DNA from: Diphasiastrum complanatum
Lineage: Eukaryota; Streptophyta; Lycopodiopsida; Lycopodiales; Lycopodiaceae
Length of the DNA: 64,000 bases
Direction: 5' to 3'
NCBI GenBank assembly: GCA_029204225.1
Contig: MU831909.1
Location: 1 to 64,000 of the forward strand
Positions 15,801 to 36,800 of the stretch are shown in pieces. The position numbers and the translations under genes were made by a program. Every line of letters begins with the position of its first letter. The stretch's first letter is position 1. The notes beneath the pieces were generated by a model. It was not told the DNA's origin, searched no databases, and worked only from the letters and a program-made list of their open reading frames with translations.

Positions 15801-18800
15801 ATCCTTGATAGTTTCATAGTACCATCTAGGCAATCTTCTAGTATCTGATGTAGGATGCTTCCTTCTTGGTAAAGCAGGAGGTGAATAAGTATCCCATGTG
15901 CTTGATCTCTCCTTCCTTTTTCCTTCCTCATCAATAGTCACTCTAGGTACTTGGATTGGAGTAGGTGATATATGTGTCGACTCAGGCTCTTGTAATGACT
16001 CGTCACATAAGATAGGAATTCCTCCATCTTGCTTCCTATCATAAGGTATCTCTGTATTTTTATGAGATCCATAAAGATCACATCCCTGCTTATAATGACT
16101 TTCTTACCCTCCAAGTCATACAACCTGTATCTCTTCTCTTGACTATCATATCCAAGGAATAAACACTTGGTCGCCTTAGAATCCAATCTGCTCCTGGAAT
16201 CCTTAGGTATGTGAGCATAAGCAATACTTCCAAACACTCACTTACATCTGGTTTCCGATCCGTGTAAGCTTCCTTTGGAGTTCGATTCTCTAAAACCTTT
16301 GTAGGACTTCGATTCAAAAAATAAACTGCCGTCTTAACTGCTTCATCCCAAAACATATTTGGAAGATTCTTACTCTTGAGCATACTCCTCGCAATTTCCA
16401 CAGTAGACCAGTTCCTCCTTTCTGCAACTCCATTTTGTTGAGGTGTGTCCGTACTTGCAAATTGTCTCTTTATACCATGATCCTTACAAAACACCTGAAA
16501 TTCAGTAGAAAGATACTCTCCGCCATTGTCCGAGCGTAGTATCTTGATTTTTCTATCTGTTTCTTTCTCCACCTGTGTCTTAAACCATGCGAAATACTTG
16601 AATGCTTTGCTCTCATTCTTGAGAAGATAGATCCACATCTTCCCAGATTATTCATCCACAAGGAAGTAACTTGCTACCCCATAAGACTGAGTTCTCGTAG
16701 GACCACACAAATATGTGTGAACAAGTTTTAGAACATTTCTCCTCCTGAATGTACTAGGCAAAATTTCTTCATATGCTGTTTCCCTAAGACACAACCATCA
16801 CAAACCTTGTGATCAGAAACAACTTGAGGTAAACCTGTAACCATGTTGTATTTCCTCAAGACTTGTAGACTTTTGTAATTCAGATGTCCAAACCTCTCGT
16901 GCCATAACTTACTCATTGATCCAATATCTGCAACCACCTGAGCCTGAAGTTTGTACAACCGTCCTACAAGTATGCCCTCAATTATTACTTCATGATTCTT
17001 CCTCTTGATGAGACACCGCTCTTTATCAAACTGCACCACCATGTGTTGCTTTGCAATAGCTGATACTAAGAGTAAATTTTTCTTGATTCCTAGTACATAA
17101 AGCACGTCCTTTATGTCTCCAATCTTCCCCGAAGGTAGTTGAACCTGTACTTTTCCAACTCCTTTTATATCATATGCGTAGTTGTCTCCCAACTTCACAT
17201 TTGATCCATCATCTAATTTTTGAAAATTAGACAACCACTCCTGCCTAGGTGTCATATGCTTTGGAGCTCTTGAATCAATAAACAAACACTCCTCTTCCTT
17301 CGAGAAGCCACCAGAAGATGTCAATGCTGAAAATAATTCATAGTAATATGGCAAAGCATTTTCCGCAAACAAAGCAAACAAAGCAGTTTCCGCAAACAAG
17401 GCAAACAATTCCGCAAACAAAGCAGTTTTCCTTTTGAACTACTTTCTTTCCATCTTCGATTGATTTGAGTAATTCTCCTCTAGATCCTGCTACTTTTTAT
17501 TTTTCTTTTTCCCTTTGCCACCCTTCTTGGAACTTTGGTCTTGCTTATTTGCTAGGAATGCTTGCTCCTTGAAATTGTCCCTATTGACAATATTTTGTCT
17601 TCTCATTTCTTCTTGTAGTAATATGGCATTCAACTCATCGAAAGAAGGCCTCGTCTCTCATAACGATAGCATCAGTTGAAAGTTCTGATAAGCCAAAGGT
17701 AGACTATTAAGCATAATGGATACCAACACTGAATCCGGAACACTTTCTCCAATCGCAATAAGTTGCCTTCTCAGATCTTTCACCTGAGTAAAATAGTCCG
17801 TTGTTGATTCACCTGTACTCATCTTCAATGTGTGTAGCTTATTAGTCAAGAACAAGATTCGTGACATCTTGCCATAAGATATCATCATCACTTGATGACT
17901 TGACCATGAATGAGTTATATAATGAGCCTTCTTTAGCTTTATTTCCATCAGCAAAACCAGCCAAAAATGCTAGCACAACTCCAACATCAACATGATGCAA
18001 AACAATGTAACTAGTTTCACCATATCTTGACAATTTGCACACATTCACATGAAATTGCTCAAACATGTGATAGAACAAGTAAAGTAAACTTGAACAACAC
18101 TTCCTTGCTGCTCCCTTGACCTTACTTGACTCTTCAATAACCTGCAAAACTAGATCCAAAGTATCGTTGCCACTTGACTTCCCTTTGATGCTCTTGACTC
18201 GCTCCAAATTGCCACCTTTCATTTTGTGTTGTTGAAGCCCTTTGAGATCAACCTCTTGATCTTCCACTTGACCATCAAAGCCATTGAACAAAACTTTTTT
18301 TTCCAGATCCATTAGTTGCATCCATTCTATGAAACCACCATCCACTTGCATAGCATCCTCTACACAAGAAGATTCACCAAAATATGTGAGAAATGCAAAA
18401 TGTGTAACTTCCACTTGCTTACCATTCTCATCATAAGTGAGCCTCAAAAGTTGTTGCCTTTGCCTTGATGTCCTCCTTGGCTTTTGATTCGAAGTAGGCT
18501 CTTCAACATCAAAATCCAAAGTATCATCAATGTCATCAACATCCACACCACCACTTGAAGAAACTTTTGGAAAGTTTCCCTCATAAAAAATGACATCTCT
18601 TCCAATGATCACTTTCTTAGTTGAAGGAATAAAAACTTTGTAAGCCTTGCTCACCTCACTATAACCAACAAATATACCTTTCCTTGAAGATGGATCCTCC
18701 TTTGTCCTATCATCAAGAGTGATGTTGATATAACAAATGCATCCAAAAGTTTTGAAAAACTTGACACTCGGCCTTCTACCAAACAAGACTTCAAAAGGGG

Positions 18801-33800: not shown

Positions 33801-36800
33801 TCTTTGCGATTTCTTCTTGAGTTTCATTTGTTGATTTTCAAGGGAGTGCTTAGTGCATTGGAACAGGTTCAAAGAGAAGATCAAATCATTGCAACATGGC
33901 AACCTCAAGTGGCTTTATGTTGGAAGGCAATGATAGGCTTACCTCAAAAAATTATTCTACTTGGAAGTTGAGGATGGAATCTTTGCTTGAGATGAATGAT
34001 TTGATGGATATTGTTGTAGGTGTGAAGGAGAGACCTTTGGCACCACAAGATCAATTGAGGTATGACAAAAGGGCAAAGAAAGCTTTATATGTGATCAAGA
34101 TGAATGTGACTAATGAACTTCTCAAGGAAGTTGGTAAGTGTACTTCATCAAGTGAGGCTTGGGAAGCTTTGAAAAAGCTTTATGAGTCCAAGTCTACATC
34201 AAGGGTACTAACCCTTAGGAGGCAAAGTTTTCAATGTATGCAAAAGACGGATGAAAGTGCGAGGAGGTGCATCTTCTACATCTCAAGTTGGAGAGAAGGA
34301 AGCAATGTTCATCAAAGGCAAGTTCAAGGGCAAAGGCAAAGGCAAGTGGTCTAAAGGGCAAGATCAGGGTGAGGCTTGTACTTTTGTTGGCAAGAAGAAA
34401 GATAGATCCAAGTTAGAATGCTTTTATTGTGGAGTCAAAGGGCATTTTGCAAGTGATTGCTTCAAGAAAAAGAGAGATCAAGATGAGAAACAAGGCAATT
34501 TCACTTTTGATGAGGATGGTATTCAAAACTCAAATGATGATGTTTTTTTTATGTCTTCTTGTTTGCTAACCAATGATGAAGATATTGATCCATGGTGGAT
34601 TGATAGTGGAGCAAGCTTTCATATGACATGTCACAAAGAGTACTTTACTTCTTTGGTGCCTTTTGAAGGAGAGAAGAAGGTCATTAACATGGCCAATGGT
34701 GGTAAAGTTGTTATCAAGGGCATTGGTACTATTCCTATTTTTCTCCCATCTACAAATAGGAATGTTCTTTTGAAGAATGTTTTGTTCATACCTTCCATTA
34801 CTGAGAATGTGCTTAGTGTGTGTCAAATGGTTGACAAAGGGCTCAAAGTGGAATTTGTTGGTGATTCTTGTTTGATCAAAAGGAATGGAGTCTTGATTGC
34901 TCAAGGCAGGAGACAAGGTGAGCTCTACAAACTTGATGGATTTGTTGGTTCTAACCATGGTGGTTTGAAGGCAAAGAAGCAAGTTGGTGAGCTTTGTTCA
35001 ATGTCAAAGTCACAAAGGTTGTCTTATTCTAGATCTAGCTCAAGATCTAAGATGCCTTTTCATTTAGTACATTTGGATTTACATTGTACTAGTTCTTTGA
35101 GTAATGGAGGAGCAAAGATGTTTGTGACTTGTGAGGATTTCATATTTGATGTCTTTCTCAAGTTCAAGAATGTTGTGGAGAGTCAATTCAACATGAAGAT
35201 CAAGTGCTTAAAGTTGGAAAATGAAGACCTATCAACAAAGTTCAAAGAAGTTTGTGTGGCACATGGGATCAAGAGGGAGCTTTCAAACTCAAAGGTTCTA
35301 CATGGTGTGGAAGAGAGGAAGGTCAATCTTTGAGAAAGAGCTAAATTCATGAGGGTGAATGCAAATCTTCCTAAGTCATTCTGGTGTGAAGCTTTGATGT
35401 GTGCTAACTTTGTTTGCAATAGGTACACAAATGAAGACTTGGATGGTAAGAGTTCATTTGAAGTTCTTTTTGGTAAGAAGCCAAGGATGGAGCATTTGAA
35501 GATCTTTGGTAGTACTTGTTATGTCAACTCATCTTTTGGATTCTTAAAGGGAATCTTTGGTGGCTATAGTGAAGTAAGGAAAGCTTATAGGGTTTACATT
35601 CCTAAGTCAAAGAAAGTTCACATTTCTAAGGATGTTGTCTTTGAAGAGGAGAATGTGGATAAGCTTGATGTTGTTGATGTTGATCAATCTAATATTTTTG
35701 ATGGTGATGAAGATGGTTCTTTGGATGGCAATGGTGGAGATGCTTCTCCAAGTCAAGTTCTAAGAAGATCCTCAAGGGAAAGACAAAAGCCATCTAGGCT
35801 TACATATGATGAGAAGGGTAAGCAATTGGAAGTGACTCATGTTGCTTTACTCACATGTTTTGGTTCATCTTCTTGTCTAGATGATGCTATGCAAGTGGAT
35901 GGTGGTTTTCAAGGAATGGATGCAACTAATGGATTTGGAAAAAAAGTTTTGTTCAATGACTTTGATGGTCAAGTGGAAGATCAAGAGGTTGATCTCAAAG
36001 AGCTTCAGCTACACAAAAGGAAATGTCGCAATTTGGAGCTAGTCAAGAGCATCAAAGGGAAGTCAAGTGGAAAAGATACTTTGGATATGTTTTTGCAGGT
36101 TATTGAAGACTCAAGTCAGGTCAAGGGAGTAGGAAGGAAGTGTTGTCCAAGTTTACTTTACTTGTTCTATCTCATGTTTGAGCTATTTCGTGTGAATGTG
36201 TGCCTTGGTCTAAAGACGTAGCTCTTTTGACAGCTTCAATCTTGGATTCATAAGAAAATTTATAGGCTTGCAATTCACAAAATTGTACTTGTGAAGAATA
36301 TTATGAATGTGCCTTTCTTGACTAATACAAATTAGTCTCTCTGCCCTATCTCTATGGATTTGAATTCCTAGGTAGCAATGTGCCTCTCTAAGATCAATCA
36401 TCTCAAATTCATTTGACATAATTTTCTTGGCATCTTTCATAAGCATGATGTAATTACTAAAGAGTAAAAAATGATCAACATACAATGTAATAATAAAAGA
36501 GTTGCCAATTGCTTTGTGGTAGACATGGAGTTAGCTAAGCTAGGTAGGAGTAAAACCATTTTGAATCATGAATGTGTTGATCCTATTAAAGCAAGCTCTT
36601 GGTGACTCCATACAAAGCTTTATGGAACTTGCATACCATGTGCTCCTTACCCTTGAGCTCATAGCCTTCAGGTTGTTATATATATGTCTTCATCTGTCAC
36701 TCCGTTGTTTGGACGTCCATTTGATGGATTGTCTAATTTGTTGTTACTACATATGACAATAGTAGTTTAATAAAAGTATGCTTCACGAGAAGGCTCGCCG

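Follow-up and report, generated by a model that had tools for sequence, protein, structure and literature searches.

We analysed a 64,000-nucleotide stretch of the Diphasiastrum complanatum (Lycopodiaceae) genome (GCA_029204225.1, contig MU831909.1, positions 1 to 64,000; this whole stretch is called the window) and conclude that two Ty1/copia retrotransposon fragments within it very probably belong to a non-autonomous ('semi-autonomous') gag/protease family, presumably mobilised in trans, in which the reverse transcriptase (RT)–RNase H region has been replaced by an unrelated segment, X. As an earlier reading of the window made from sequence only had described, the fragments lie on opposite strands (the plus and minus copies), and in each an integrase is followed by a common non-RT tail. 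Of the copia pol order, gag, protease and integrase are kept in the RT-less elements, and RT and RNase H are absent. X is ~0.8 kb long, lies between the stub that remains of the RT start and the final ~25–35 bp before the 3' long terminal repeat (LTR) with the reading frame kept, and ends in the polypurine tract (PPT) before that LTR.

The tail is present in many dispersed copies, and the possibility raised by the sequence-only reading, that only two copies exist through one local duplication, did not hold. We searched the 1.74-Gb assembly (5176 contigs), scoring in each search the best ~40 of several thousand candidates, so that all counts are lower bounds; places sampled from the match lists were picked by hand and are non-random. 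With window positions 35500–36400 as query, the best 40 of 5436 candidates comprised the window itself, a 100% identical duplicate (contig C338) and 38 other places. All 38, at 89–94% identity, lose the match at window positions 36196–36203, and it is therefore the plus copy of the window that was cut there; position 36203 was rejected as a genuine element end, as the tail of untruncated copies continues to the PPT and LTR. We fetched 36 of the 38 copies, 20 as 10-kb and 16 as 2.2-kb stretches, among which 26 are distinct at a 97% threshold.

Copies that extend past the cut in the window carry ~500 bp more tail, then TTGAAGAGGGAGTG, and then a sequence running from TGTGAAAAATTG to TTTTTCACA. 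The PPT, GAAGAGGGAGTG, stands just before the 3' LTR, which is 649 bp long in copy L027 and 678 bp in L021 and has TG...CA ends; RT is absent from the intervening sequence. On the 5' side of copy L015, the LTR sequence, with an interruption of ~1 kb, is followed immediately by TGGTATCAGAGC, which we take to be the usual primer-binding site (PBS) of plant copia elements. Because the sequence found at the 3' end recurs at this 5' position and is followed there by TGGTATCAGAGC, we identify it as the LTR.

Segment X is largely an open frame of about 280 codons, pieced together from several copies and in frame with the integrase. Copy L019 has an unbroken run of 237 codons starting at the linker, and pieces of L011, L022 and L028 reach KLVEEGV or KLVEESV at the PPT. 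The best forward frame of ten tract-reaching copies contains 2–13 stops per 283 codons (2 in L022, 4 in L027, 5 in L014 and L019), with no frame favoured in L025 (13, 13 and 13 stops); five copies (L011, L017, L021, L023 and L028) are frameshifted in X, and the whole frame is open in none of the copies read. Some of X may also be absent at its start: in L050 the linker is joined directly to the later part of X. The profile search left the tail without any significant Pfam, PDB or Rfam match: nine natural tail pieces were unmatched in Pfam at E 10, a sequence search of PDB gave nothing below E 1, and a structured RNA of a known family was discarded after Rfam gave no hit for three loci at the gathering threshold. 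An antisense gene was rejected on the 11–32 stops in the antisense frames of ten copies, and relatives sought in viral contigs and plasmids led nowhere. Nor is X an out-of-frame or diverged RT: RVT_2 is absent at Pfam E 10 from the nine tail pieces and the window pieces, and RT-bearing copies align only up to the linker, so the tail is not a segment of an RT-bearing frame, an outcome the sequence-only reading had left open.

That reading had also proposed looking for a full copia family with the same LTRs; an RT-bearing relative has the 3' end and LTR in common with the RT-less copies. With the integrase of the minus copy as query, the best 40 of 6797 candidates included three that were the window and identical copies; at 14 places sampled downstream of this minus-type integrase, RT follows in eight and X in six (two of which are near-duplicates of a third). 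RVT_2 was detected at E 8.2e-30 in L052 and 1.2e-8 in L051, and the other six RT copies match these at 81–92% (DNA). At the left junction both kinds of element can be aligned across the linker and into the opening residues of the RT region (EWIQAMDLE / EWMQLMDLE), beyond which they diverge. On the right side of L052, RNase H (recognised by eye) is followed by the same last bases, PPT and LTR as in the RT-less copies. The first 200 bp of its LTR match 14 of 23 RT-less stretches at 72–90% identity over 86–201 bp, in a comparison that covers the PPT and the first ~200 bp of the LTR rather than the partner's PBS or LTR 3' end. A 500-bp query spanning RNase H, PPT and LTR of L052 returned 40 scored matches (of 5756 candidates, one being L052 itself), all covering most of the query. 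X thus occupies the site of RT and RNase H in a sister family of many copies.

Within the window, the two copies do not share one history along their length. Their integrases are mostly 59–72% identical (extremes 51 and 78%, aligned in 80-column steps); identity is then 65% in the 80-column stretch at 35707, climbs to 78% and, at 35867, to 94%, remains 91–94% over about 320 bp of tail until 36186 and ends abruptly. The first estimate of about 70% identity thus fails as a single figure, as it mixes two ages, and the picture of two evenly diverged copies of one element gives way to different integrases with a younger common tail, which points to recombination. Among fetched plus-type copies, identity to the minus copy is 67–76% in the integrase (34 of 36 copies, at least 100 bases) and 86–93% in the tail (36 of 36).

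The plus-type integrase is associated with X and is catalytically degenerate. When it was used as query (best 40 of 4187 candidates scored), 20 further sampled places showed X in 16, RT in none and other sequence in or just after the linker in 4; among the 16 places assigned to the tail, L061 was assigned from 18 bp. Of the 36 fetched plus-type copies, 27 could be read at the second catalytic Asp (SDNGG), 21 of them distinct, and all 27 lack it; like the plus copy of the window, they read LANED, LENED or similar or have a deletion; in the plus copy, codon 35217–35219 is GAA at the position that holds this Asp in the RT-bearing family. The D,D(35)E triad is thus incomplete in the plus-type lineage. 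Both Asp motifs are present in the minus copy, and the second is kept there and in seven of eight RT-bearing copies, the eighth and several tail copies being unreadable by motif scan; motif rows from L010 and part of L019 belong to other copia elements, and L010, which reads D-S-G-G, was not counted. A shortened zinc-binding part is common to the plus copy, L009 and L026 (with its duplicate L042), and CxxC is kept in L024. Upstream, the WWIDSG protease motif is found in several copies, and the zinc knuckle of the plus copy is broken in L024.

On an integrase tree, the six plus-type rows cluster together, set apart by a long branch (0.42, support 1.0), and minus-type copies with the tail and with RT are interspersed. 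The minus copy is an RT-family integrase joined to X. Exchange between retrotransposons normally takes place by template switching between co-packaged RNAs, and the interspersion of tails and RTs on the tree suggests the same here; the simplest history to be read from these sequences would be that 3' halves were exchanged repeatedly between the RT-less and RT-bearing families. For Triticeae elements, template switching is treated in PMC1950507. That the tail moved between integrase backgrounds by gene conversion or recombination of genomic copies, not by template switching in particles, is in our judgement unlikely. The sharp identity step between the window copies and the existence of near-identical duplicated copies would fit such an origin, but X stands behind several distinct RT-family integrases (contigs C6, C8, C9 and C12) at the same linker, and in L050 the linker is joined further inside X.

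We found no sign that X is under purifying selection, as the sequence-only reading had supposed from its hydrophobic segment and conserved length. Between the window copies, the tail has a non-synonymous divergence (dN) of 0.094 and a synonymous divergence (dS) of 0.051 over 261 bases, and the integrase a dS of 0.83–1.34 and a dN of 0.36–0.37 (the core estimate includes a few misaligned end residues). Among the 26 distinct copies, we compared the synonymous share of variants common to at least three copies with a neutral expectation. The integrase C-terminus has 17 synonymous variants of 41 (expected 0.21, P 0.002), unlike the first part of the tail (14 of 65, expected 0.20) and its last part (10 of 49, expected 0.18); a first run on 18 copies gave 11 of 25 for the integrase and 10 of 40 for the tail. 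Stops account for 4 of 65 and 1 of 49 shared variants in the two tail parts and 2 of 41 in the integrase. With transversions only, the integrase did not depart significantly from expectation (8/44, P 0.28, at two or more copies; 5/21, P 0.16, at three or more), and the comparison of integrase with tail gave Fisher P 0.035 at three or more copies and 0.15 at two or more; recurrent C-to-T change may contribute to the result from all variants. The integrase C-terminus is therefore likely, though not firmly shown, to be constrained, and the tail looks neutral while the family multiplied. That the frame is long and open yet shows no detectable constraint suggests capture of X from a coding sequence not long before the expansion; no source gene for X came to light, no genome search having been aimed at one.

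These data also bear on whether the RT-less lineage keeps X by selection as a protein, for instance as a gag partner or a targeting or interference factor, which we regard as improbable. Such a role would account for a long frame that is continuous with the integrase and ends in the PPT, and for two linker frameshifts that, relative to the minus copy, cancel in most plus-type copies and leave the tail frame intact; against it stand the excess of dN over dS, the neutral synonymous fraction of shared tail variants and the stops among them. A more elaborate proposal is that a satellite copia element with gag and protease has fused a catalytically dead, partly constrained integrase to a new open reading frame (ORF), exchanging 3' halves with the RT-bearing family, and that the dead integrase–X protein could act as a competitor or modulator of the integration complex of the partner; we hold this to be rather doubtful. 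Independent decay, in which chance deletions removed RT and the tail is adjacent junk sequence, would suit the many truncated and stop-containing copies but is hardly credible and was rejected, because, as the sequence-only reading had argued, it does not explain an identical junction and tail in dozens of dispersed copies, reaching the PPT and 3' LTR where untruncated.

We thus favour a family that multiplied in RT-less form, with LTR, PBS and PPT and an RT-bearing relative. This part of the earlier proposal stands; its other part, supply in trans of RT (and integrase), is the natural reading of an RT-bearing relative with the same LTR rather than a direct observation. In the mechanism we propose, the plus-type satellite would encode gag, protease, the degenerate integrase and X, and its RNA would carry an LTR, PBS and PPT recognised by the enzymes of the RT-bearing family. 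Gag of either family could form the particle, the RT-bearing family would supply RT, RNase H and integrase, and RNAs of both families would end up in common particles. A template switch at the linker between integrase and RT could then attach X to an integrase of the RT family, the arrangement seen in the minus copy, and X itself may be mere filler that preserves the frame and the 3' end.

Several observations weigh against this interpretation. None of the 20 stretches fetched at 10-kb length contains a copy with both LTRs, nor did any target-site duplication turn up, so that a complete RT-less insertion is not proved. The majority of copies are truncated or rearranged, and 10 of the 36 fetched copies are near-identical to another, so part of the copy number reflects segmental duplication or duplicate contigs. 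Supports among minus-type copies on the integrase tree are modest (mostly 0.48–0.97), and a 70-residue piece of the L052 RNase H, the domain recognised by eye, had no RNase H match in Pfam.

Non-autonomous LTR elements include LARD and TRIM, which have no coding capacity, and TR-GAG, which retains gag only; all are thought to be mobilised in trans. The arrangement in which enzymes are borrowed from relatives is already known in outline from other plants. In barley, the accessible portion of PMC5738225 describes the copia family RLC_Giselle and several gypsy families that retain gag, lack RT and integrase, and have PBS and LTR ends in common with autonomous partners; Giselle, with a potentially intact gag and no RT or integrase, is presumed to rely on a related autonomous family, as our family may, and its similarity to RLC_Inga peaks around the PBS. 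The description given there is without a replacement ORF, unlike the gag, protease, integrase remnant and X found here. A similar wheat gypsy pair is RLG_Quinta and RLG_Cereba, where Quinta, the non-autonomous partner, encodes GAG and a domain of unknown function (DUF1) without RT or integrase and has LTR termini and PBS in common with its partner (PMC11302176, in part); Quinta differs in being gypsy and centromere-specific with an intact GAG ORF, and that portion of the source reports no integrase remnant. Semi-autonomous variants of the wheat gypsy family RLG_Sabrina likewise have GAG-Pro without RT or integrase, and in other variants a coding region has been replaced by different sequences encoding short proteins (PMC9744471, in part); Sabrina is, however, a gypsy family in which GAG-Pro is what was replaced, whereas here it is RT–RNase H. 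TARE1 of tomato was set aside as a comparison, being described in the accessible part of its source as an autonomous element. Our searches, which cover the open-licence literature, gave no description of a copia family in which RT–RNase H is replaced downstream of an integrase that is kept but catalytically degenerate. The RT-bearing and RT-less elements are here separable at one linker, which they have apparently exchanged repeatedly, so that genome sequence by itself could serve to measure how often co-packaging and template switching occur between an autonomous family and its satellite. The Asp data further suggest fixation of a catalytically inactive integrase in a multiplying lineage.

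The table lists the two window elements and their parts. The start of the plus copy was moved from 33027, as none of the 20 fetched 10-kb stretches has a match to 33001–33358, and the position of L015 equivalent to 33359 comes just after its LTR and PBS; the limits of the minus copy were likewise revised from 17900–19460, and its family homology extends 172 bp beyond the point where the two window copies diverge.

Table. Extents and parts of the two RT-less copia elements in the window
Feature	Position	Strand	Remarks
Plus copy	33359..36203	+	RT-less, degenerate-integrase lineage; no LTR at either end; 3' truncated inside X; start approximate
Gag start (MATSSGFML...)	33896..34354	+	Pfam Retrotran_gag_2 E 1.9e-15; continues in next frame
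CCHC zinc knuckle and protease region	34416..34841	+	Pfam zf-CCHC E 1.3e-5; Pol_BBD E 1.5e-22; WWIDSG motif
Integrase core remnant	34950..35330	+	Pfam rve unmatched; zinc-binding part shortened
Integrase C-terminal SH3-like domain	35469..35657	+	Pfam SH3_retrovirus E 1.9e-17
Linker end and first part of X	35884..36203	+	In other copies X continues to PPT and 3' LTR
Minus copy	17865..19588	-	RT-less; no LTR; RT-bearing-type integrase joined to X
Integrase core, Asp motifs HSDIHG and RSDNGG	18942..19352	-	Pfam rve E 5.6e-13
Integrase C-terminal SH3-like domain	18568..18783	-	E 1.8e-26
Linker stub and X	17865..18356	-	Stub homologous to RT-region start in RT-bearing copies

Read by eye, an unrelated copia RT fragment (36210–36530, minus strand) sits immediately past the truncated end of the plus copy, and the minus copy adjoins a gypsy-like fragment at its 5' end and the gag of another copia element at its 3' end (17865); the fragments abutting position 17865 and the 3' end of the plus copy appear to be nested or rearranged insertions. 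Contig C338 carries both window elements again, 100% identical, in inverted order and with a spacing that differs by ~1.4 kb, and the minus-copy integrase is also found on contig C15 (37454969–37455919), which suggests that a stretch of chromosome is represented a second time by a duplicate contig or haplotig.

Elsewhere in the window, direct repeats at 38676–38877 and 44272–44473 (95%) and at 38877–38942 and 44566–44631 (98%) lie ~5.6 kb apart, with an exact TGGTATCAGAGC beside them at 44254–44265 (minus strand); the repeats of 38676–44631 are possibly the LTRs of another element. Long open frames resembling a non-LTR element, similar to a long interspersed nuclear element, occupy 20468–22788 on the minus strand (by eye, from the ORF list). 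Segments 25692–25859 and 50227–50394 are 92% identical and include a (CT)n-type repeat tract, and pentatricopeptide-like repeats were recognised by eye in the window besides the copia elements.

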